NCBI RefSeq assembly: GCF_036373705.1
Contig: NC_089863.1
Coordinates: 3,766,444-3,830,443, forward strand
Direction: 5' to 3'
Source: Amia ocellicauda
Lineage: Eukaryota; Chordata; Actinopteri; Amiiformes; Amiidae
DNA: 64,000 nt
Shown here: positions 2,463 through 63,960 of the stretch, in pieces
Layout of the letters: every line of letters begins with the position of its first letter
Position numbering within the stretch: position 1 is the first letter of the stretch
Notes under the pieces: generated by a model
The model's input: the letters and a program-made list of their open reading frames with translations, nothing else
What the model was told of the DNA's origin: nothing
Database searches by the model: none
Position numbers and translations under genes: made by a program

Positions 2463-5400
2463 GGCGGCCATCGAGGGCGTGGAGAGCGATGTCGGCGATC
2501 TGGAGACCAAGCTGGACAAGGTGAGACCCGACGCTGTCCACCATAGCGCTCCATCAGGAGATGTAGGAGTTCACAGGGGACTCGAACCCTGACCCCGGCC
2601 CGGACCACAACGTCACCCTCATTTAACCGCAAGTTTCCCGTCAGTGCCAAATGTAGCAAAGCCATCCTCTAGACCATGGGTTTTCAAACCCATCCTGAAG
2701 TACCCCTTGCCCTGCTGGTTTCGGTTCCAACCTAGGTCTTAATTACTTAATTGAATGACATATTGCTTCGTTAGGTCAATTAAGGATTCAATTAAGCAAT
2801 TAAGACCTTGGTTGGAACAAAAACCAGCAGGGCAGGGGGAACTCCAGGACTGGTTTGGAAATCACTGCTCTAGACCAGCGTTTCCCAGCCTCAGTCCTGC
2901 AGGAGCCCCTACGCTGCTGGTTTTTGTTCCAACCAAGCTCTCAATTACTTAATTGAACCATTAATTGAACTAATCATTTCCTAAATCAGAGCCTTTTGAT
3001 TATTTTAAACAGAGGGGTTTCAAGTATAGAATTGTATTAAGAACTTCTTAAAGAACCCACTCTTTTATTACACAATTTAAAAAGTCAAATCGAAGCAGAT
3101 TGAACAGCCCTCAGATTTGCAGCTGGAGACGATACAATGTGTTCCGTCCCTCCCGTCCACAGAGAGACCGCAGCCAGGCGTTCGTGTCTCATTCACTTCA
3201 CTTCCCTCTCCAGGTGGGAAAAGTCCCTTGTGTTTCAGTAGCGGTCTTGTTTTTTTTTGTTTGTTCCTGCTTTTAAACTGCTGCCAAGTCATCAAATGAA
3301 TGAAAGGATCTTCTATGGTCTGTCTCTTCCCCTCAGTCACTGCCCTCTCTCTCTCTCCCTCTCTCTCACTGTCTCTGCCCTACCTCTCTCTGCCCCTCTG
3401 TCCCCCTCTCTCTCTCTCTCTGCCCCTCTGCCCCCGTGCCCAGCTGGTGAAGCAGTGTCACTCGATGCTGGAGGCGGGCCGGGTGTACTGCAACAGCAGC
3501 CGGCAGTTTGTGACGGGCGTGCGCGACCTGGGCCAGCACCCCAGCTCCGACAGCACCGTGAGGGTGAGCGCCGCCGCCTGCCCGGCCACTGACCGCGTGG
3601 CTGTTGTTTTTGTTGTTGCAGTGTAACGGTTTGTGTTGTAGTTGTTGTAGTGTGTGCTGTCTCTGTAGTGTCACTGTTTGTTGTTGTAGTGTGTGCTGTT
3701 TGTGTTGTTGTATGGTGTTTGTGTTGTAGTTGTAGTGCAACTGTTTGTGTTGTAGTGTGTGCTGTTTGTAGTGTGTGCTGTCTGTGTTGTAGTTGTTGTA
3801 GTGTGCTGTCTCTGTAGTGTCACTGTTTGTTGTTGTAGTGTGTGCTGTTTGTGTATTTGTTGTAGTGTGTGCTGTCTCTGTAGTGTCACTGTTTGTTGTT
3901 GTAGTGTGTGCTGTTTGTGTTGTATGGTGTTTGTGTTGTAGTTGTAGTGTAACTGTTTGTGTTGTAGTGTGTGCTGTTTGTAGTGTGTGCTGTCTGTGTT
4001 GTAGTTGTTGTAGTGTGCTGTCTCTGTAGTGTCACTGTTTGTTGTTGTAGTGTGTGCTGTTTGTGTTGTATGGTGTTTGTGTTGTAATTGTAGTGTAACT
4101 GTTTGTTGTAGTGTGTGCTGTTTGTAGTGTGTGCTGTTTGTAGTGTGTGCTGTCTGTGTTGTATGGTGTTTGTGTTGTAGTTGTAGTGTAACTGTTTGTG
4201 TTGTAGTGTGTGCTGTTTGTAGTGTGTGCTGTCTGTGTTGTAGTTGTTGTAGTGTGCTGTCTCTGTAGTGTCACTGTTTGTTGTTGTAGTTTGTGTTGTA
4301 GCATGTTTGTTGTAGTATGTGTTTGTGTTGTAGTGTCACTTTCCGTGTTGTAGTTGTTGTACTGTGTGCTGTTTGTGTTGTTGTAGTATCTATTGTGTGT
4401 GTGTGTGTGTGTGTCTCTCAGTATTTCTATCTGCAGTACAGCAAATTATATATAAAAGCTTTATTGGCACTAATGACATCAGTGTTGCCAGAGCAGCTGA
4501 CCGGCCCAGTGACAGGACCAGGGCGATGTCATTGTACACTACAGTTTCAATCTCTCTCTCCCTCTCAGGACTGTCTGGAGAAGTTCTCTAACAAGTTGGC
4601 CCTGATGATTGACGCTCATGGGGTGAGTGATGTCACACGTGCTGTCCCCGGGGGGAAATAAAAAAAGAGTGAGTGAACACGTCTGCGTGGAAGTTCACAT
4701 CTCCCCTCTCTCTGTCTCTCTCCCTCCCCCAGGAGCTGCTGGAGGTCACACAGAAATCAGTGAAGTTAAAGCTGCAGAATTTTGTGAAGGAGTGGGTATC
4801 AGAAATAGTGCCATCTTGTGTGTAACTTCAGTCACTGCAACTGACTGAGTGACTGACTGATTGACCCCCTCCACCCCGCTCTCTGTAGGGATGTGAAGCG
4901 CTTTAAGGACACCAAGAAGGAGTTCGACCGCAGCAGCGAGAGTCTGGAGGCGGCGCTCGGCCGGAACGCCCAGGCGCCGCGGAACAAGCAGCACGAGGTG
5001 GACGAAGCTACGACCTCCCTGCTGGCGGCACGGACCACCTTCCGCAACGAGGCGCTGGACTACGTGCTGCAGGTGAGGCGGCAGACACCGCAGGGGACAG
5101 GGTGGGCACGACAGAATGGCAGGGTCTCCTGGAGAGCTACAGCACAGAACAGTGTTGTGCTGTTTAGTAGACTGCAGATCTGTGTAGGGCAGTGCGGTAT
5201 AGTGCAGTGTGTGAGTGTGAAGGTTTAGGCCGTCTGGGAGAGATGTAATTAATGCCCAACTATTTTAATTACCTGCTTCCTTTGTAGATGTGTATTTCTT
5301 ATTATGTATTTTTGTAACAGTAGTGCTGTGTAGTATAGTCCAGTACAGTGCAGTGCAGTGCAGTGCAGTGTAATATAGTCCAGTACAGTATTATGTATTA

Positions 5401-15100: not shown

Positions 15101-17953
15101 AAGGAGTGCTGGATCCGCTCCAAGTACGTGGAGAAGAAGTTCATCCAGAAGCTGCCGGAGACGGGCCGCCCCCTGCGCCGCTCCAGCGCCCGCCGCAATC
15201 GCGGCAACACGCTGGAGCGCGACTCTGCCCGGCCGCCCATCAAACCCAAACCTGGCCGCGCCACCCTGCCCCGGCTAGCAGGTACACTGACACACGCGCG
15301 CACACACACACACACACACTGACACACACACACACACACACACACACTGAAACAGACACACACACTGTACTTGACCCACATTCTTGTGCTCTTTGTGTAT
15401 AAGCTGCCTGTTGCCCCCCCCCCCCAGGTCTCAGCCTCGGTGACCAGAACAAGAACAACGTGGCCCCGGCTAGCCCCCGAAAAGGTGAGGGGTCAAAGGT
15501 CAAAGCCAACCAATAACAGTGCTGCAGACAGCCCTTCTACAGAGATGCAGTTCAGCACAGCAGAAAGATCACATGACCTGCCACTAATTAAGCCAATTAA
15601 GTAATTGGATGAGTAATTAAACAAGTGACGGTTAATCATGTTTTTCTGGTGTCCCCCCGGTCCCCCAGATGAGGAGGAGGAGGAGGACCTGAGTGGGCTG
15701 CACCCTGGCGCTCTGCTGTACCGGGCCGCCGGGCTGCAGAACTTCCCCGTCATGGCGGACGCGCTAGCCCACGGCGCCGACGTCAACTGGGTCAACAGCA
15801 TGGACGGCAGCAGCACCCCGCTCATCCAGGCTGTGTCCGCGGTGAGGGGGTCTGTGTGTCCGTGTCCGCGGGACTCTGTTTCTGCCTGTGTGTGTGTGTG
15901 TGTGTGTGTGTGTCAGTCAGTGTTTCTGTGTGGTTTTTTCTCTCTCTCTCTCCTGTCTGAAAACCCACCCCTGAATTGCACTCCTCTCCTCTCTCTTGGT
16001 CCTCCTCTATCCCAGGATTCCCTGGTGGCCTGTGAGTTCCTGCTGCAGAACGGGGCGAATGTCAACCAGACTGATGCCAAGGGGCGCGGCCCCCTGCACC
16101 ACGCCACCATCCTGGGGCACACCGGGTATGAGACAGACAGACACAGAGACAGACAGAGACAGACAGACAGACACAGAGACAGACCGACAGACACAGAGGG
16201 CTAGTGGTGATTATTGATAAATATTGTGCGACTGTGTGCGTCTTCAACATTTGTATCTGTCTCATCGTATTCATGGTATGTGTGTATGTCGCGTGTCTGT
16301 GTTGTCTGTGTGTTTATCGTGTGCGTCTGTCCATCCGCAGGCTGGTCTGTCTGTTCCTGAAGAGAGGAGTGGACCAGAGCGCCCGGGACGGAGAGGACAA
16401 GGACCCCCTGACCATTGCCATCGACAACGCCAATGCTGACATCGTCACACTGTGAGACGGGGGGGGAGAGGAGAGAGGGAGGAGGGGAGCAGTAGGAGAG
16501 AGGGGGAGGAGCAGTGAGAGAGAGGAAGGTGGAGAAGAGTAGGGGAGGAAGGAGAGAAATTTTGTGAGATCGTCGGACTGACTCCTCTCACTTTGTGTCC
16601 CCGCCCCCCTCCCAACAGGCTCCGCCTTGCCAAGATGAAGGAGGAGATGATGCGGGAGATGGAAGGCGCCTACGGCCAATCAGGTCATTGCAGGGAGAGG
16701 GAGGCCGCCGCCAACAGCAGCGGGGGGGCGCCCAAAAAGAGCTTTCAGGCATTCCGGAACCAACTGACCGGCTGGGCCCTGGGGACACAGGGGGACTAGA
16801 CTGACCCCCCAAACACACACACCCTCTCTCTCTCTCGCACACACACACACATACATTCACACTGACACACTCACACAAATCCTCGCACTACAATTCATGT
16901 TGCACTTTGAGACGCAGTCTCGTTGCACTTTACCGGCCAAAAAACGGCTGCATTTCTTGACGAAGAAGAGCATAATCGAACAAAAAGACTCCAGTCGGGA
17001 GCCTTTTGGACAACAACGGCCTTGTTTTAAAAGGAAAACAACCGAATCGCCGCTTTTTTTTTTTTGTCATTTGTTAATGCTGCCGTCCTGTTTCCTACAC
17101 AAGTGACTACTGAACAATCGACACTATCTAAGCGCGCCGGGGCCCCCGTGTGGCCCTGAGAGGGGCCGCGTGTTTTTAATGCTTTATTTTAATGCACCTG
17201 TTTTTGCAGTTCAGCCTCGTGTTGCCATGCTCTTTATTGCCGTGTGCGAGCGAGCCTTTGTGTGTGTGTGTGTGTGCGTACCTGCGTGTGCGTCCGTCTG
17301 TCTCAGTGTGTCGGTCCGCTTGTCCGCTGTGCCGGCGTCTGTCTCCGCGCTCCTCCACGGCGTCGCCCCGGGCCCTTGGCGCTTCGCTGGCTTTGCGTTG
17401 TCCCCCGAGTCCAGCGCTCCCTCAGGTAACGGCGCCTGCGTCGCCCGCAGCCACCTCTCCTGTCCGCCCAGCGCCCAGATCTGCCTGTCGTCTCCTCTGA
17501 TTTAGTCTCACTCATTTATTCACGCATGCACTTGTTTATTTCCATATTCCTAGTGGCGTGTGCAGACCTGCTCCTCTCATTTGATTTGGTTTGATTCATT
17601 TATCCATCCATCCATTTCTCTCTATCTTTCTCTATGATCTGTTGTTAATAATCAGACCTGTGTGCCGTGCAGATTGAAAGTGTGCATCTGTCCCATGGGC
17701 CACTTGTATTGAATTTCCTTCTCTTCCTCTCTCCCCTCTCCTCCCTCTCTTCCATCCTTTTCCTCCCCTACCTCTCTCCTATTCCATCATCTTCCTCTCT
17801 CCCTCCCCTCCCTCTCCCATTCCATCCTCTCCTCTCTCCCTCCTCCTCACAGGAGATGAGACGTACCACGACATCTTCCGGGATTTCTCCCAGATGGCCT
17901 CCAACAACCCGGAGAAGCTGAACCGCCGCAGCACCGACCTGAAGCTGCCCTGA
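2463..17953 (+). CDS. acap1: acap1: ArfGAP with coiled-coil (BAR), ankyrin repeat and PH domains 1, 5'-partial
   Basis: GTPase-activating protein for Arf6 that binds phosphoinositide membranes and acts in endosomal recycling (family knowledge). Twenty-two exons splice in one open frame to 749 aa plus stop; human ACAP1 is 740 aa. Domain order: BAR (about residues 1-250 of the visible part), PH (about 255-350), ArfGAP zinc finger (about 390-510), a basic proline-rich linker, ankyrin repeats (about 580-700), and a C-terminal G-D-E-T-Y / D-I-F-R-D-F motif. It is assigned to ACAP1 rather than ACAP2 or ACAP3 by the short basic P-x-K-P linker and best overall match. The first exon lies off the left edge. 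Exon coordinates are in the domain entries. The gene converges on slc16a13. Large minisatellites and transposon relics fill several introns. Confidence 0.95.
2674..2880. repeat. Palindromic MITE-like element in an acap1 intron
   Basis: The left arm (about 2680-2750: TTTTCAAACC, CCCTGCTGGTTTC, GTTCCAACC, AATTACTTAATTGA) is repeated in inverse complement in the right arm (about 2790-2875: AATTAAGCAATTAAGACC, GGTTGGAAC, AAACCAGCAGGGCAGGGG, TGGTTTGGAAATCACTG). A related single copy follows at about 2878-3000, and similar sequence is seen at 13430-13680 and 48450-48505, so this is a dispersed repeat family. No coding capacity. Confidence 0.7.
3610..4400. repeat. GT-rich minisatellite (GTTGTAGTGTGTGCTGT-like units)
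   Basis: Degenerate tandem repeat built from GTTGTAGTGTGTGCTGTTT / GTGTCACTGTTTGTTGTTGTA words, with higher-order units of roughly 130-300 bp that recur nearly unchanged (for example CTGTCTCTGTAGTGTCACTG at 3658, 3808, 3868, 4018 and 4258). It fills an acap1 intron. The cysteine/valine-rich and threonine/glutamine-rich open frames on its two strands are artefacts of the repeat. Confidence 0.85.
5209..5321 (-). repeat. SINE copy 1 (minus orientation, truncated)
   Basis: About 110 bp (GAAGGTTTAGGCCGTCTGGG through TTATGTATTTTTGTAA) is the inverse complement of 6121-6230 with only a handful of mismatches. It lies in the acap1 intron just before the 45-bp BAR exon. It appears to be the 3' body of the SINE family whose tRNA-like head is visible in copy 2. 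Confidence 0.75.
5985..6240 (+). repeat. SINE copy 2, tRNA-derived (plus orientation)
   Basis: The head contains a tRNA-like segment with a good B box (GGTTCGAATC at about 6058-6067), followed by an unrelated body ending GACGGCCTAAACCTTCAC and a CA-rich tail. The body is the inverse of 5209-5321. It lies in the intron after the 45-bp acap1 exon, so the two copies face each other across that exon. Confidence 0.65.
7707..10929 (+). CDS. acap1: acap1 exons for the PH domain
   Basis: Four exons: 7707-7819, 8096-8147, 8279-8379 and 10818-10929. They encode the PH domain, with hallmark stretches MEGYLYKRASNAFKTWSRRW, FSIQNNQLVYQKRLKD, VVEDLRLCTVKLCPDNERRF and CLLQADSERQQQAWVLAVQ, the last carrying the invariant PH tryptophan. 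The intron between the last two exons (8380-10817) is almost wholly a tandem repeat, so a single PH domain is interrupted by about 2.4 kb of minisatellite. The phases agree across all four joins. Confidence 0.93.
8395..10805. repeat. 2.4 kb minisatellite inside the acap1 PH-domain intron
   Basis: Tandem array of related units such as GTGCTGTGTGGGACAGTGAC, GTGTAGTTACAGTGTAGTGT and TGTGTGGGATAGGGGCAGTG, combined into longer higher-order repeats. It fills the intron almost from the donor (8380) to the acceptor (10817). The minus-strand histidine/threonine-rich frames at 9065-9553 and 10264-10581 are repeat artefacts. Confidence 0.92.
11015..12249 (+). CDS. acap1: acap1 exons for the ArfGAP domain
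   Basis: Three exons: 11015-11226, 11373-11442 and 12155-12249. The zinc finger is C-x2-C-x16-C-x2-C (first C in CCDCGEP, last pair in CIVC), followed by S-G-I-H-R, whose arginine is the catalytic finger that stimulates Arf GTP hydrolysis. That arginine codon is split AG|G by an intron with a GC donor (11227-11228) instead of GT. The next exon reads SLGVHFSKVRSLTLDSWEPE and the third LMCELGNDAINRIYEA, both ArfGAP signatures. The acceptor of the third exon uses a pure (TC)n microsatellite at about 12116-12150 as its pyrimidine tract. Confidence 0.93.
11625..12110 (-). mobile_element. L2-like LINE reverse-transcriptase fragment
   Basis: The minus strand encodes the typical C-terminal end of a fish L2/Rex-type reverse transcriptase: RLRIVQNSAARLLTRTK, TPVLASLHWLPVHFRIDFK and LITYKALHGLASSYI, preceded in other frames by KTEVLIISPK and FDSNLKFENHI blocks. 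Frameshifts separate the pieces, so it is a dead copy. It sits in the intron between two ArfGAP exons of acap1. Confidence 0.8.
12250..12490. repeat. GC-rich minisatellite starting at an acap1 splice donor
   Basis: About four good copies plus degenerate copies of a roughly 32-bp unit (ACACACTGCCCTCGCACCAC followed by GCCGTGCCCCCC). The array begins within about 25 bp of the donor at 12250. Because 32 is not a multiple of three, all frames alternate through the same peptides, which explains the proline/histidine/alanine-rich open frames on both strands. Confidence 0.85.
12504..14722. mobile_element. hAT-like non-autonomous DNA transposon (about 2.2 kb)
   Basis: The left end reads CAGGGTTCCCA and the right end, in inverse complement, CAGTGTTCCCA. 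Both ends carry subterminal GTCATGGAAAA-type repeats (12538-12605 and 14650-14690). CTCTGA directly abuts each end (12498-12503 and 14723-14728), which looks like a target-site duplication, although hAT elements usually make 8 bp. The interior is AT-rich, has no transposase frame, and holds a nested palindromic repeat at about 13430-13680. It lies in the acap1 intron 12250-15093. Confidence 0.6.
15094..17953 (+). CDS. acap1: acap1 exons for the linker, ankyrin repeats and C-terminus
   Basis: Seven exons: 15094-15281, 15428-15484, 15669-15841, 16016-16125, 16341-16451, 16619-16683 and 17853-17953 (stop TGA 17951-17953). The first completes the ArfGAP C-terminal helix (KYVEKKFIQKLPE) and begins the basic linker. 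The ankyrin part reads LYRAAGLQNFPVMADALAHG, then ADVNWVNS, CEFLLQNGANVNQ, GRGPLHHATILGHTG, FLKRGVDQ and DPLTIAIDNANADIVTLLRL. The last exon encodes GDETYHDIFRDFSQMASNN and ends KLP. At 16683 the penultimate exon can also be read through to a stop at 16797-16799, which may be an alternative end. Confidence 0.92.
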
Positions 17954-27509: not shown

Positions 27510-32754
<5,245 letters not shown>

Positions 32755-32936
32755 CTCCAACAAGCTGGAGGGGTGGAGGGGAGGGAAAGAGAGAAGCAGA
32801 GACTGAGAGAGACACAGAGAGACACAGAGATATGTGAATGGGACTGTAGGATTGTATTCATTTCCTGCCGCTACTGCAGCTGCTCATGATCACAAGGACA
32901 GCAGCGATGGTGCCGGGAGTGCGGTCAGTCGCTCAC

Positions 32937-50500: not shown

Positions 50501-51367
50501 GCTCTGCCGCCCCCCCCCCCGCAGAGCACGCTGGAGCGCTGTTCCAAGTGCTCCCACCCCATCCTGGACCGCATCCTGCGCGCCATGGGCAAGGTGTACC
50601 ACCCGCGCTGCTTCTGCTGCGTGGTGTGCGGCCGCTGCCTGGACGGGGTGCCCTTCACCGTGGACGCCACCTCCCAGATCCACTGCATCGAGGACTTCCA
50701 CAGGTCAGGCCCGGCGGGGCGGGGGGGCGGGGTGGGTGTCGTGAGTAGGGAGAGGGGCTGAGGGCCAGGGACAGAGAGGGGGACTAGGAGACCCTCTAGT
50801 GGCCAAACGGTGCAGCACTCTTCATATATACAAAAGCACATCTCTTCATAATACAGAGGCAGGGCATGAATGACTGATGTAATAATTGATAAAAAACAAG
50901 CAATAAATAAAGTAAATTTTGTTAATTTAAAACTCCTCTCTCCCCCTCCCCCTCTATCCATCTCTCCGCTTCTCTCTCGCCTCCCTCCCCTCTCCCTCTC
51001 TCCCTCTCTCAGGAAGTTCGCCCCGCGCTGCTCGGTGTGTGGCCAGGCCATCATGCCGGAGCCGGGGCAGGAGGAGACGGTGCGCATCGTGGCCCTGGAC
51101 CGCAGCTTCCACGTCAACTGCTACATGTGTGAGGTAGGCGATGGCACGGGGGTCCGGTGTGTGAGCTGGGGCAGTTTGAACACCCTGTCCTTCACTCTCC
51201 CTCCCTCTCACCCCCTTCTCTCGCTCCCCCGGCAGGAGTGCGGGCTGCTGCTGTCCTCGGAGGGCGAGGGCCGGGGCTGCTACCCGCTGGACGGACACAT
51301 CCTGTGCAAGAGCTGCAGCGCCCGGCGCATCCAGGAGCTCAGCGCCAAGATCTCCACCGACTGCTAG
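47567..51367 (+). CDS. trip6: trip6: thyroid receptor-interacting protein 6, zyxin-family LIM protein
   Basis: Adaptor of focal adhesions and nucleus, binding actin-regulatory and signalling partners. Nine coding exons: 47567-47765 (exon from 47560), 47861-48015, 48134-48247, 48511-49173, 49717-49807, 50221-50390, 50525-50703, 51013-51133 and 51236-51367 (stop TAG). They join in frame to 607 aa (human TRIP6 476). The start is fixed by MSGPTWLPP, the TRIP6 N-terminus. An LD-like helix (LSAIDAEIDSLTSMLAHME) and a long proline/tyrosine-rich region (about 160-375) precede ELDRLTKKLVYDMNHPP and three LIM domains: LIM1 from CARCGENVLG, LIM2 from CSKCSHPILDRILRAMGK, LIM3 from CSVCGQAIMPEPGQEETVRI. 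The protein ends STDC, the family PDZ-binding tail. The length excess lies in the proline-rich exon. Confidence 0.96.
49175..49630. repeat. GA-rich purine tract in a trip6 intron
   Basis: About 450 bp of GGGAGAGG/GAAAGAAGGGG-type sequence directly after the donor of the proline-rich exon. The complement produces a spurious serine/proline/phenylalanine-rich frame that runs on into the antisense of that exon. A second pyrimidine tract, 49975-50220, leads into the LIM1 exon acceptor. Confidence 0.85.
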
Positions 51368-55739: not shown

Positions 55740-57520
55740 GAGAGGGGGACGGAGCCTGCGGGGGGACGGGGGGACGAGGGGACGTGGGGACAGGGAGCAG
55801 CCAATCGGAAGGGACAGGGGGTTGGCTGAAGTTCTACAGAGATGGACGGAGAGATAGATGTGTAACAGGTTTGTGTGGCGCCCCCTCCCGCTGTCTCCCC
55901 AGTGGGCGACTGACCTGCTGTCTATCCAACGAGCACCAGAGCAGAAGTGACTCAAATGCTAATTACCCCCCCCCCCACCTGCCACCACTTTTTTAATCCC
56001 TTGGCTTACATTTGGGTTGTATAGCAATTGTAGAGAACGTCTGAGATGCCCGTCGCCTGGTATCTCTTTATATGGTCAACTTGAGATCTCCCAGCTGTTT
56101 AAAATCATTGCAAAAAAACAACAGCAACCTCTAGGCAAATGATGAGTTCAAGTATTGATCCCCCGCCGCAACTGAGAGCAGGGCCGGGGTTTTCTGTCCG
56201 AGCTACAGGGTCCTTTGTTTTTGTCATCCTCAAACCCATTCGGTCACTGATATTCCCGTAACCCTTGACCCCTGCAGCCTCTCCTGACCTCTGCAGCCTC
56301 CCCTGACCCCTGCAGCCCCCACAGCCACATTTGAAAAGACTGGGGACACTGTATTCGAAGCCAATCCACATCACCGACGACCCGAAAGAGGCCGACAGAG
56401 CAAGAGGGATGTCATGGTTCGACCGGGGGCCATGTGGTCTCCGGAAGAGGGGCTGTGATTCCCTCCGGTACTGGGACTCCTAGCGAACAGATAACAAGGT
56501 TTGCACTGACCAGGTTCGTTTAAAGCTGAACCGAAATGGCCCGATGTATAATAAACAATGAAATCCCCCTCCAGTCCTCGTACAGCAGGGGCTTCGTGTT
56601 CTGAGACAGGCGCCCGTTCCCACTCCTCCGTTGAAAGGTCCCGTCGCTGTGTGTTTCTCTGGTTACTCATTAAGCCCTGGCATTTCTCGCCGCCTCGGGG
56701 CATAATTAACTTTTTAACGAGACACGAGCTGTCAGGGCTCGGGCGCCACACTGGGCAGCTAAACCCAGCCGCACGGGGTCCTTTCCTCACCAGTCGCGGT
56801 GGGAGGAAGCAAAATCCTAATTCAAAATCGCCCACTCCGGCCCGGCTTCGGAAATTGTCAGCGGTGACATGTGACGCTGTGTTCGTTAGTGCCCCCCCCA
56901 CGGTGATGATACAGGCGTTCTCATGATTTGGTTCTTGTTGGTTTGTTTTATAGGGTTTGACTGATGGCCTCAATGAACCGCCGTGTACCAAATGGTCTTC
57001 TTTAAGATCGTGACAAAAGACACACTAACACACATGTACAAACACAAACACTCACACACAAACACTAGCGCTGATGCACACACACACAGCGCACAAACAC
57101 AGAAACGCACAGGCCTGCGTCCAGACATGCTAACGTGCTCTGACAGGCAATCGGTGCTGACATTTGCACTGCGGGGGTGGGGGCGTTGCTCTCACGCGTG
57201 TCTCGCTGTGGTCCTCACTTCTCTCTGTCAGTGTCTGTTTTGCAAGGAAAAGTCAGGCCGTGTGAAGGGGGAGGATGAGTTAGAATCATTTGCATAGAGA
57301 TCTCTCTCTGGTTAATCGCACCACAGAGAGGGGACTTGGCGTCCTGCCTGTAGTGACAGGACAGTTCAGACACGGGAAAAGAAAGAGAGTAAGGTGGTGT
57401 TGCAGCCACTGAAGGTTGAGAGTGTTCTTCCTGTGCTGTTTGACACAGAAGGGTGCTCTCTCCGTGCACAGTCAATAAAAATGTATCGTTTACTGGGACT
57501 CGACGCATTGCCTCGTCCTC
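55740..57520. other. Intergenic, nothing recognised
   Basis: Unique sequence without exon-like structure. There is a short CTGCAGCCTCCCCTGACCCC repeat at 56270-56320 and CA-rich stretches at 57020-57110. The open frames here (for example antisense 56371-56991) show no domain. Confidence 0.5.
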
Positions 57521-57524
57521 TACG

Positions 57525-57965
57525 ACATGCCATGTCCCCTACAACACGCTGTCTTTTCAAACACCCTGTCCTCTACGACACTCTGTCCCCTACAACATGT
57601 CCTGTCCCCTACAAAACCCTGTCCCCTACGATATCCTGTCCCCTACAACATCCTGTCCCCTATGACATGCCCTGTCCCCTACAACATGCTGTCCCTTCCA
57701 ACACGCTGTCCCTTTCAACAACCTGTCCCCTATGACACACACTCCCCAACACACTCTGTCCTCTACGACACCCTGTCCCCTACAACACACTGTCCCCTAT
57801 GACATCCTCTCCCCTACAACACTGTCCCCTATGACATCCTCTCCCCTACAACACTGTCCCCTATGACATCCTGTCCCCTACAATAGTCTGTCCCCTATGA
57901 TATCCTGTCTCCTATGACATCCTGTCCCTTAAGACATGCTGTCCCCTACGACACACCTTGTCCCT
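57525..57965. repeat. Minisatellite of CTGTCCCCTACAACAC-like units
   Basis: Units of about 15-17 bp (CTGTCCCCTACAACATC, CTGTCCCCTATGACATC) repeat some 25 times, with a 33-bp higher-order pairing near 57790-57880. All frames read Pro/Leu/Ser/Thr-rich peptides. Confidence 0.9.
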
Positions 57966-58754
57966 TACAGTCTGCAGTACACACACACACACACACAAAC
58001 GTTTAATTACATTTACTTTGAAAACAAAGTGTTGCTTCAGACAGGTGATAAACTCAGCAACATGAATACAGGAGTCAGGTATTGTTGTAAGATGTTTTAT
58101 CTACAGCTCTCTGTGCTCATCTGCTCCCCGGCCCTGTCTTTGTGTCACTAATTTTAAGAGGCTTGTCAACCATACCACAACCGAAGACCCCCAGGCACTG
58201 GAGGTCTTTACTCATACCTATCAGTGATAACATCTGCAAATACGCTTCTGCTGTCTCGTCCTGCCTTCTCAAGCATCAAAAGAGCATCAGACATCTTACC
58301 ACAGGTCCCCAAAAAACCACATCATGCCTCGAGCAGAGGTGCTCAGAGTGACACAGGCGATAGCTGACATGGGTCTGGGTCTCGATGTTGTTATCAACTC
58401 GACTCGAGAGATGGAAAGTGTGGTCCAGAGCTGCACCGCTGACCTCATCCTGGAAACTGACAGAGAGGGAGCTGGGGGTGGGGGGTCGGGGTATAAATCT
58501 GCAGAGGCTCGAGAGGCAGCACAGTATCACCTACACTGTCCTCTCCATTGCTGCCCTCCACCTTTGACTGAGGATTCAACGCAGAGGTAAGAGGGGTCTC
58601 AGAGACTGGTTGGACAGTGTTATTTTGACAGCTGTTGTACAGGGGAGCCACCAGTTGAATAAATGACAACTACCGAGTCTGCTAGAAGAGACAGAGACTC
58701 AGAGGGATCTGACAGGTGACTGAATTCAAACGAGTGCCTGATCAAAACTTGATA

Positions 58755-59235: not shown

Positions 59236-59563
59236 TATACACACATGGGTATTACTTACGTGTCGCCCTCATCTGACCCTTATAATGGTTTATCTTACAG
59301 ACCGTGGGAGAACTCAAGAGCCTGGTATCATTTATACTTGACATCTGCAGCTGCTTTAAATCACTGAAGTGACAGAGCTCAGGTGAGGCCAATTATTAGT
59401 ACAATTAATTGTTCCATTCACTGAGAGCTCGACTGGGAACAGAAATCCACAGCGGGGCCCCCGGGAGCCCATCGTAGCACATCTCTTGCTTGACTCCATA
59501 TCCCTCTGTTGCTGTGCTCTGACCCGTGCTGCCCGCTGTCCTGCAGGTGAGCGCTGAAGGACG

Positions 59564-60440
59564 ATGCCACTGACCCAGAGGCTGCTGTGTCTGACCCTCC
59601 TGCTCCTGCCGCTTTCCGGCGGCCAGTTCCTGCAACCCTCGCCCCCCCGCCCCCCTGCCCCCCGGCCCTGCGCCCGCCTGCTGCCCCCCGAGCCCCAGAG
59701 CCCCCTGCCGGGAGGAGGAGGAGGGCAGGGGCACAGGCTGGGGCAGGCGGGGGCACCCCGCTCCTTCGTTGTGGCCCCCGGCTGTGAGCTCACGCTGTGG
59801 GGGGGGCAGGCGTCTCGCTCCTTCACCAGCGGGAAGCACCTCAACGTGTCCCTGGGGCTCGAGGGGGGCCCCACCGCCTTCCACTGCAGCTGCCAGGACC
59901 AGCCCAGTGCTGAGGAGACAGAGGACAAGGTAATATTGACCAATGATCACAGACACCAGTAATACTGACCAGTAATCACAGACACCAGTAATACTGATCA
60001 GTGATCAGACACTAGTAATATTGACCAGTGATCAGACACCAGTAATATTGACCAGTAAGAATGAGACTGTTTTCCTTCTTCTATTTCAGTATCAAGAGGA
60101 GACTGCTTACCAGAAATTCCTGAGACAACACTTGGACCCGTCTGTGCGCAGCGGCAACGACAAGTATTGTGACAAAACCATGAGCAGAAGAAGAATGACC
60201 AGACCACAGTGTAAGGAAATCAACACCTTCATCCACGCCAAGAAACAAGAGGTTGTGAAGGTCTGCTCACAAAAGCCCCTGGTCAAAAACTTACACCAGA
60301 GTAACCATACGTTCCGTCTCACGGTTTGCGAGTTAAAAGGCAGATCCACCCATAAGCCCTGCCAGTACAGAGGCCGTGACAAGGTTAGAACCATCATTGT
60401 TGCCTGCAAAGATAAAAAGCCTGTTCACCTTGGAAAGTGA
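59564..60440 (+). CDS. Secreted syncollin-like / RNase A-superfamily chimeric protein
   Basis: Exon 59564-59929 (122 codons) begins with a signal peptide (MPLTQRLLCLTLLLLPLSGG), then a Pro/Gly-rich stretch and a syncollin-like block: RSFVVAPGCELTLW, FTSGKHLNVSLGLEGG, ending AFHCSC. Syncollin is a zymogen-granule protein with VVAPRCELTVW and YCRC at the same places. The donor AAG|GTAATA is phase 0. After 160 bp, exon 60090-60440 (acceptor TTCTATTTCAG, also phase 0) encodes an RNase A domain: catalytic His in FLRQHLD, the family signature CKEINTFIHA with catalytic Lys, and the C-terminal His in KPVHL. It has six cysteines, lacking the fourth disulfide as angiogenins do. Total 238 aa. The RNase exon has no signal peptide or start of its own, which supports a joint transcript. 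Two separate or decayed genes remain possible. Confidence 0.75.
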
Positions 60441-62370
60441 GAAGATGATTAGCTTCTTACCCAATGCTGTTTGGTTTGCTTTCCTTCCCCCTGCCACCCC
60501 CTCTCGATTGTGCCTCTAGGAGACCCTCTTCATCCCAATTCTCTCCTCTCCCCTCCATCGTCAATTCCCCACGGCTCATCCTGGGGCACTCACCCCTTAG
60601 ACGTCTTCATCCGAGAACACCCGACACCGCCGGTTCGATTTCTCCACATTTAAGAATCAAACATATAATATTTCTCACTTGATATCGTAACATGTGAACA
60701 CCTCCGCTGGTCTGGTCCCACCCTGCTCTAGAGTGTGCGGGTAGCCCCGAAAACTGCTTTAACAGCCCGGTGAAGAGGAGGAGGAGGACTGGTCGGTGAG
60801 GAAGAGATGAGCCCTCCTGGAAGTGATGAAGTCAACTAAGGTGAGGCCCAGACCACAAAGAGACCCACCCCCTCTCCTGGTCTTGAGTTCAAAGCAGTGG
60901 ACGGTGATTTCTGACCATAATCCTACACTCTAGATGAAGTGCGATCCTTTCTGGTGAAGCTCAAGCTATGCTGTGGCAGTAGGGTTGGCTGCGCACTGTA
61001 ATCATAATGTTCCTTTTATTAGAGGTGCTGAAAGCAAATGGAATTAAAAACAAATAAACGCTGCAATAAACAAATCGCTTTGAATTCACTGAGATTCGGT
61101 TTCCTGTTTTTCTTCTTCTCTTTTTTGGGTCACGAACAAAACAAGTGTTGATTCCTTCTCTAAACACTCCTTTCTCCCATCTCTTCCTCACATTCACCCC
61201 TCTCCCTCTCCTGTCCTCACATTTGCCCCTCTCCTCGTCTCTCTGTCCTCTCCCTTCCATGCCCTCCCCTTTCCCCATCTCTCTTTCCCCGCTCTCTCCC
61301 TCTCTCTCCTCTCCCACACTCCTCTGTCCAGGTCAGGGGATGTCAGTTCCAGTCCTGGGGGTGTGTTGTGTTGTCCTGTGCTTTGTGTTCCAGTCAGGCA
61401 GGGTTGTGGCCTCACATCTCGAGTCCTTCACCACAGTCAAGGTTATCAGCTCTACATATACAATGCGCTAAACCTCTCAGAAATAACATGAAAGAAATAA
61501 AGCCTGAACTGAGAGAATAAGTCCTGAATGATTGGGAGCTCATTCTGGACCAGGAAACACCACTGATCACGTGGCCTCCCCAGCTCTGTCTTAAGTGCAA
61601 CTTCAATTTCACCTACTGTCCGATATTTTACTGGATTTGCTGACCATCAAGAGATAAATCAACTGTAATGTCAGGAGCGGAGTTTTATTCCCTGGCAAGA
61701 TGGCGGACTCAAATCCCAATGAGTCGCACACACAGATCTAAATCTCAATGGTTGAAAGGCCCCAATAAAATTGGAAATCAGGTGCTATTATATATCTATG
61801 GTATGGAAACGAGGCCAGCCGCTTCTGATTGGCTGAGAGGGTTTTCGTCTGGAAACGGTGGTTGGTCAGGGACCTTGTCACTCACTGTAATATCCGGTTG
61901 GCCAGTCATGAGCTAATGCGGAGTTCGTATTGGAATAGCGTGTGGACAAACATGAGGAATTTGTGTAGAGGACATTCCACCTAAACATTAATAAACGTTT
62001 GCACTTACTGTGTTAAGCAGGGTGATGGACACGGCGCTTTAAAACACCGCGCATTAGAAACGTGCACATTGCGGCGCTGGGCACTCACGAAATGAACCAA
62101 CTGGCCCATGACGTCACCCAGAAAGCGGAAGTCACCAGCTGGCTGTAGGGTTTGTGTTTGCGAGAGAAGTTAGCATTGTTTTATGCTCCACAGGCGGATG
62201 ATTTTAACTTGAATTGATGGTTTTATGCGCGGAGATGTTTTAATTCACTTGAATCCGGATAACGAGATGCGTCTTTGCAAACCCAAGCGACGCATTTGAG
62301 GCGCAGGTGTTTGGTGCCAGGCTGCGGCTGTCCTCTGACATGGCGACGGGGTTTTGAAGCAGCGGGCGAC
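60441..62370. other. 3' UTR of the RNase gene and intergenic region
   Basis: AATAAA signals for the plus strand occur at 61053-61058 and 61496-61501. Positions 61150-61325 are a CT-rich tract. The last 300 bp before 62371 are richer in CpG and include a perfect TGACGTCA at about 62109-62116, so this is the likely promoter of the next gene. No other exon recognised. Confidence 0.45.
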
Positions 62371-63117: not shown

Positions 63118-63960
63118 TATACAGATGGGTGACAAATTAAAGGAAACGCCAACATAAAGCCTCTCAGTAAGGTGTTGGGCACCATGAGCCCCAGAACAGC
63201 TTCAATGCTCTTGGCTCAGATTCTATGAGTCTCTGGACTCTACTGGAGGGATGAACACCATTCTTCCTAAAGATATTCCCTCATTTGGTGTTTTGATGAT
63301 GATGGTGGAGAGCGCTGTCTAACACGTTGGTCCACAATCTCCCATAGGTGTTCAATTGGGTTGAGATCTGGTGACTGCGAAGGCCATAGCACATCATTTT
63401 CATACTCAAACCATGTGGGGTATGGGGGGCCGTTGTCATCCTGGAAGAGACCACACCCATCAGGATATAAATGTGTCTCCATAGGATAAAGGTGATCACT
63501 CAGAATAACTTTGTAATGATTTGCAGTGACCCTTCCCTCTAAGGGGACAAGTGGACCCAAACCATGCCAGGAAAATGCCCCCCACAACATAACAGAGCCT
63601 CCGGACCCCCTCACTGTAGGGGTCAAGCAGTCAGGTATGTATCGTTCTTTTGGTGTCCCACACATGCACTCGCCCACTTGTCCAGAACACGAGCCGGTTG
63701 AGCATCTGTGTGACTGAATCTCCTGCCACTTGAGCCCCAATAATGCCCCCTCTTTCAAAGTCACTTAGATACTTTCTTCTTGCCATCTTGATCCAAAATT
63801 GAGGTCAGCTGGGCCGGCTCAGCATTTGCATACATGCTACAGAGCATGATAGGATGTATCATGCAGTACACCTGTTTGGAGGCATCTGCATTCATTATGT
63901 TCCTCCACTCATTTATTCAGGTTTTTCCTTTAATTTGTCAGCCGTCTGTATGTATGTGTG
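63118..63960 (-). mobile_element. Tc1-like transposon with broken transposase, minus orientation
   Basis: The minus strand begins transposase at about 63788 (ATGGCAAGAAGAAAG, M-A-R-R-K) but jumps from the first 25 or so codons straight to the catalytic core, so the helix-turn-helix DNA-binding part is deleted. The core 63267-63700 reads GGSVMLWGAFSWHGLGPLVP, FQDDNGP (second catalytic Asp) and [13 protein letters not shown] (catalytic Glu of DD34E). Terminal sequence TACAGATGGGTGACAAATTA at 63116 marks the 3' end, and TIR-like sequence to about 63955 marks the 5' end. It is incapable of transposing itself. Confidence 0.85.

Follow-up and report, generated by a model that had tools for sequence, protein, structure and literature searches.

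A candidate family of secretory proteins joining a syncollin-like domain to an RNase A domain in Amia ocellicauda

The window analysed here, a stretch of 64,000 nucleotides from Amia ocellicauda, contains an exon encoding a leader and a syncollin-like domain and, shortly downstream, an exon encoding an RNase A domain. This arrangement raises two questions: whether the two exons belong to a single fusion gene, and whether the front domain of that gene is related to syncollin by descent. The sequence-only reading had proposed an in-frame fusion across phase-0 splice sites 160 bp apart, and its coordinates proved to be right: when joined, the two exons encode 238 residues in an open frame (Table 1). 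We confirmed that this fusion is no chance arrangement, as two other loci of the genome have the domains in the same order and uninterrupted. Three loci thus encode a leader, a front domain and an RNase A domain, in this order, in an open frame; two have no intron, and that of the window is open after its exons are joined. Below, we discuss the gene in the window, its relatives in the genome, the relation of its front domain to syncollin, and what the fusion may mean.

The gene in the window and its RNase domain

Exon 1 comprises 122 codons and has a G+C content of 73%, and that of exon 2 is 47%. Judged by eye, the hydrophobic leader takes up approximately residues 1-20, and the syncollin-like core approximately residues 66-111. 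The splice donor is AAG/GTAATA at 59930 and the acceptor TTTTCCTTCTTCTATTTCAG/T at 60090, with phase 0 on both sides. One of the ten GTs scanned between 59701 and 59960 fits G/GTRA, and two of the 17 AGs between 59961 and 60120 are preceded by at least 10 pyrimidines in 14, namely those at 60090 and 60097, which share the same tract. If it were not spliced, exon 1 would run into a stop codon at 59960-59962, which ends 33 bases into the intron. Neither AATAAA nor ATTAAA is found between the two exons; the next such motifs downstream are at 61043 and at the positions given in Table 1. The second candidate noncoding exon of Table 1 recurs, with its flanking sequence, in a damaged copy in L038.

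Table 1. Positions of the features of the window gene and of two intronless fusion genes elsewhere in the genome
Feature	Position	Strand	Remarks
Possible core promoter, TATAAA	58492..58497	+	Motif match alone
Possible 5' noncoding exon	58520..58586	+	By eye; GTAAGA donor at its end, start guessed
Possible second 5' noncoding exon	59301..59382	+	By eye; CAG/ACCGTGG ... CTCAG/GTGAGG
Coding exon 1	59564..59929	+	Start ATG 59564; leader, Pro/Gly-rich stretch, syncollin-like core, linker
Phase-0 intron	59930..60089	+	160 bp, mostly a 27-bp unit repeated in tandem ~4.5 times (59930-60056)
Coding exon 2	60090..60440	+	RNase A domain, 116 aa and stop; TGA ends at 60440
AATAAA motifs, possible polyadenylation signals	61053..61070	+	Motif only; 61053 and 61065
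Fusion gene L008	C20:3465827-3466510	minus	227 aa, no intron; RnaseA Pfam E 3.2e-15
Fusion gene L009	C24:20064227-20064985	minus	252 aa, no intron; RnaseA Pfam E 3.9e-8

The RNase half can be assigned firmly. Exon 2 matches the Pfam family PF00074 (RnaseA) with an E-value of 1.9e-31 and 109.5 bits, the curated cut-off being 23.1. Aligned to bovine RNase A and to RNase5 of zebrafish, it shows six Cys, a CKxxNTF stretch and the equivalents of His12, Lys41 and His119; the earlier description of a six-Cys RNase with a complete catalytic His/Lys/His set holds. In the PDB, its sequence matches RNase A constructs and angiogenins, and zebrafish RNase5 also appears in the list. The domain is cationic, with a computed pI of 10.0 and 27 Lys and Arg against 10 Asp and Glu. 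An AlphaFold model of exon 2, made without an alignment, had a pLDDT of 44.7 and was useless. As had also been proposed, this exon has no leader of its own and the upstream exon supplies one: the frame upstream of exon 2 consists of the intron repeat. The conventional RNases L007 and L011 start leader-like in the RNase frame, and the lack of a leader in the window exon is thus a real difference.

Several other elements were seen in the window. Upstream of the gene, at 57490-57970, lies a degenerate minisatellite-like stretch with, by eye, TGTCCCCTACAACA-like units, and the minus strand at 63270-63764 carries part of a DDE transposase (PF13358, E 3e-7; Tc1-like by eye). Pieces of neighbouring genes at 4857-5225, 15629-16201, 32545-32883 (minus strand) and 50870-51364 contain a BAR domain and ankyrin repeats, which by eye resemble ACAP, a BTB domain slightly below the cut-off, and a LIM domain.

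Fusion genes and other RNase A loci in the genome

The assembly from which the window comes has 988 Mb in 385 contigs. It contains at least four matches to the Hox9 activation region, which agrees with a vertebrate that lacks the teleost genome duplication. Searching it with PF00074 gave 22 matches, of which 19 were above the cut-off and one was the window gene. Reading frames were inspected at 17 of the other 21 matches, that is, at all except L018, L022, L023 and L026. Two of these 17 loci, L008 and L009, encode the fusion in a single uninterrupted frame with the same domain order, which brings the intact fusion genes to at least three: the one in the window, one at C20:3.466 Mb and one at C24:20.064 Mb. 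Since both additional frames are uninterrupted, the fusion does not depend on guessed splicing. From base composition alone, the chance of an open frame is 7.6e-4 for the joined window gene, 5.1e-4 for L008 and 1.4e-7 for L009.

In L008, a leader and a front domain nearly as in the window are followed directly by the RNase A domain, which has six Cys. In L009, both the front domain and the RNase domain are strongly diverged. The L009 RNase domain has both catalytic His, an Arg in the Lys41 column and two of the six Cys. In the alignment to RNase A, both Cys of the disulfide pairs C26-C84 and C40-C95 have been lost and both of C58-C110 have been kept. Such paired loss would be expected if the protein still folds. 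Catalysis by the C24 copy is probably weak or gone. Approximately 1.3 kb upstream of the intact gene, its first 32 codons recur, 97% identical, as a partial tandem copy (L041 6282-6377; C24:20066282-20066377).

Two further loci are damaged copies. L006 (C20:3.495 Mb) retains the last residues of exon 1, an intron of the same kind and an open RNase exon; its leader and the greater part of its front domain are missing. L010 (C20:3.845 Mb) keeps the leader, has no front domain, and its RNase frame is broken. Among the other loci inspected, by contrast, ten (L007, L011, L014-L017, L019-L021 and L024) have, by eye, a leader-like start in the RNase frame, L012 and L013 are broken, and L025 is a frame without a start. 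A second cluster, at C20:9.52-9.62 Mb (L015-L017 and L019-L023), consists of diverged RNase A genes, several of them nearly identical, with matches barely above the Pfam cut-off, and is possibly a lineage-specific expansion. At L024 (448-1824; C20:3.868 Mb), an RNase-like frame follows a Cys-, His- and Leu-rich tandem repeat, long and in frame, which is probably a satellite that is open by chance.

Is the front domain related to syncollin?

Exon 1 resembles syncollin (SYCN, PF15138) in that it is small, has a leader, and contains in its core a Cys, Thr-x-Trp, Phe-x-x-Gly and, near the end of the domain, Cys-x-Cys. It differs in two respects. Firstly, the syncollin of this genome stops at the Cys-x-Cys, whereas the fusion chain continues into the RNase. 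Secondly, three of the seven Cys are missing from the window copy, which PF15138 does not match. The sequence-only reading had called this exon syncollin-like, and that claim stands in part: pairwise tests with shuffling, the core in common and a weak signal from a profile of two sequences favour it, and PF15138 and genome searches with syncollin queries do not.

The pairwise evidence is as follows. Exon 1 aligns locally with human syncollin with a score of 64, and with the genome's own syncollin (C5, L001) with a score of 49; none of 5000 shuffles reached either score, the best shuffles coming near at 60 and 47. As a control, the human query matches PF15138 at 1.6e-54. Of the 725 open reading frames in the window with 50 aa or more, exon 1 scores highest against either syncollin, with runners-up at 43 and 44. 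In a comparison of five sequences, all ten pairs beat 2000 shuffles, several by one point. Syncollin and the front domains have a core in common (S..V...C..T.W ... F..G ... G ... C.C) with ten invariant columns. A profile built from two syncollin sequences gave E-values of 0.0024 for L009, 0.012 for the window and 0.099 for L008, the best of 900 shuffled decoys being 0.27. The mature domains contain seven Cys in the genome's own syncollin, four in the window, four in L008 and six in L009, and all six of L009 align with Cys of the own syncollin, by which L009 would be a useful bridge between the front domains and syncollin.

The library searches gave another picture. Neither Pfam, up to an E-value of 10 and including PF15138 (Syncollin), nor NCBIfam, a prokaryote-oriented library, matched exon 1, scanned whole, trimmed and, in Pfam, extended to the stop in the intron. 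The profile search against the syncollin family thus returned no match, one of the outcomes that the sequence-only reading had named as a refutation, and it matched none of the three front domains of the window, L008 and L009. Genome-wide, PF15138 found one true syncollin, L001, and the fusion genes were not among its matches; two other matches, L002 and L003, contained stops and were taken as noise. Genome searches with the own and the human syncollin likewise returned the true syncollin and weak matches with stops, and none of the fusion genes; one match, on C2, looked like noise when read. Searches of PDB sequences with exon 1 and the L009 front domain yielded noise only. An AlphaFold model of exon 1, made without an alignment, was all-beta and middling (pLDDT 62.5), and Foldseek found nothing for it at E <= 0.001. 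Foldseek ranked a chain of a fungal fucosidase first (4ni3; E 0.14, probability 0.96, TM 0.30), with beta-gamma-crystallin chains lower in the list, and no inference was drawn from either.

An alternative to consider is that the front domain is an independent small Cys-rich domain, unrelated to syncollin by descent, whose C..T.W...C.C pattern arose by chance. The silence of PF15138 on all three front domains, and the failure of syncollin queries to find the fusion loci, would fit this explanation, as would the absence from the window copy of three of the seven Cys of the mature own syncollin. The same may be said of the profile-profile comparison with hhalign, which gave a probability of just 50% from a poor alignment that misplaced L009 (the later alignments served for reading). 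On the other hand, chance would have to account for pairwise scores that no shuffle reached, for the first rank of exon 1 against two syncollins, for the ten invariant columns, and for the alignment of all six L009 Cys. We consider this alternative unlikely, and descent of the front domain from syncollin quite likely, the syncollin identity of exon 1 being probable from these comparisons. As Pfam and NCBIfam do not match exon 1, the label rests on pairwise comparison; with pairwise support but no match by PF15138 or the genome searches, we use the name "syncollin-like".

Divergence, the intron and the possible role of the fusion

The two halves of the window gene and L008 have diverged very differently. 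Up to the CSC motif, 97 of the 105 aligned residues are identical between the window gene and L008 (dS 0.095, dN 0.036); past it, 48 of 113 are identical and synonymous sites are saturated. In the DNA, a near-identical block of approximately 415 bp (window ~59480-59893, by eye), interrupted by a 15-bp gap, starts approximately 80 bp 5' of the ATG and stops at the domain border. That the front halves are near-identical but the RNase halves very different suggests gene conversion or copying of a module, and such conversion or copying of the 5' part, between genes approximately 360 kb apart, would be the simplest reading.

In the case of the window gene and L006, identical aligned bases number 157/160 in the intron, 61/71 in the tail of exon 1 and 286/345 in the RNase exon; the intron of L006 is the longer of the two, and the intron alignment has 54 gap columns. 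A conversion of the front from one of these genes to the other was dropped as an explanation because the intron alone is nearly identical. In a genome search that skips simple repeats, DNA of the window intron was found elsewhere in the L006 copy only (L040 5451-5664), and an introner-like element was dropped since this DNA was seen at two related genes only. L008, L009, the true syncollin L001 and the conventional RNase L007 each have their coding part in a single frame, and the intron was thus probably gained, later, in the line of the window gene and L006. The sequence GAGGAGAC is present in the exons on both sides of the window intron and may be a duplicated target, which we offer as a lead only.

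Selection tests were marginal: in the front half of the window gene and L008, eight of 16 changes are nonsynonymous (P 0.055), and the RNase exons of the window gene and L006 have a dN/dS of 0.65 (P 0.090), close to neutral. A tree of the RNase domains was built from 12 rows, omitting near-copies (L016, L019-L021), fragments (L024, L025) and broken loci (L010, L012, L013). In this tree the fusion rows, L006 included, do not group together and two changes are needed; one change sufficed in 0% of 200 bootstrap trees. Of 500 label shuffles, 34 were as low as two changes, and L008 is a long branch. The tree neither shows nor excludes a single origin of the fusion RNases.

These results bear on two further explanations. 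The copies could be functionless relics of at least one fusion event, those on C20 having spread by duplication and gene conversion. Two of the five copies are damaged and the selection tests are marginal, as would be expected of relics, but three long frames have stayed intact on two chromosomes, and the strongly diverged L009 has lost its Cys in pairs; we regard this explanation as improbable. Least probable by a little more is that the window holds two independent pieces, a syncollin-like gene of exon 1 stopping at 59960 and an RNase exon that is dead or has another leader: the in-frame stop in the intron and the near-neutral change of the RNase exon would agree with this, but L008 and L009 read straight through without an intron, no polyadenylation motif separates the window exons, and the RNase exon has its six Cys and catalytic residues.

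We favour, with fair confidence, the reading that the fusion genes encode a two-domain secretory protein, with a leader, a syncollin-like domain and a cationic RNase A domain, in a family of at least three intact genes. A gene of the syncollin type would have become joined to an RNase gene, the first stop codon and the leader of the RNase being lost, and the window intron would have been acquired after the fusion. In PMC13349920, syncollin is described as pancreas-enriched and located at the luminal surface of zymogen granule membranes, and knockouts as indicating that it acts in granule formation and exocytosis; a title cited there states that transport was affected and secretion was not. By analogy, the front domain might take the RNase through the regulated secretory pathway to the luminal face of granule membranes. 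The fusion protein would be held there and leave with the granule, and the RNase, once released, could reach the gut lumen or microbes and act as a digestive or, judged more likely because of its cationic charge, a defensive RNase. Zebrafish RNase 5 is described, in PMC6794472, as antimicrobial and angiogenic.

A more far-reaching reading is that these genes form a lineage-specific set of granule-delivered RNases, with a syncollin-like front kept uniform among genes on C20 by conversion or copying (the uniform front being that of one gene pair, the window gene and L008), fast-diverging RNase domains and, on a second chromosome, one probably non-catalytic copy. The front module would then associate with membranes and serve to deliver a defensive payload that changes. 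We put this combined reading forward tentatively, as doubtful though possible.

Compared with the six-Cys members of the RNase A superfamily, such as angiogenins and the zebrafish RNases, the window protein is alike in matching PF00074 above the cut-off and in the His/Lys/His, CKxxNTF and six-Cys features, and it differs in having an extra domain in front, which provides the leader. To our knowledge, the members of this superfamily are single-domain secreted enzymes with their own leader. RNASE10 is an RNase A homologue that also has additional sequence before its RNase domain, a long N-terminal extension that is not known to be syncollin-like. The sequence-only reading knew of no described syncollin-RNase fusion, and we found none in the part of the literature searched, which took in few subscription journals and included passages of PMC6794472, PMC13349920 and PMC2582337. 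An annotated but unnamed copy may exist in predicted-protein databases, which lie outside that scope. As far as this literature goes, the searches suggest that syncollin-like plus RNase A is a new combination of known domain families.

The fusion bears on several subjects. The intron of the window gene and L006 looks like a recent gain from tandem repeats, and the sharp change in divergence at the domain border between the window gene and L008 would offer a clean example of a converted gene or a copied module. An RNase stably fused to a syncollin-like domain would be an architecture new to the RNase A superfamily. It would also provide a natural test of the role of syncollin, as a cargo tied to the domain would show whether this domain holds things at granule membranes.
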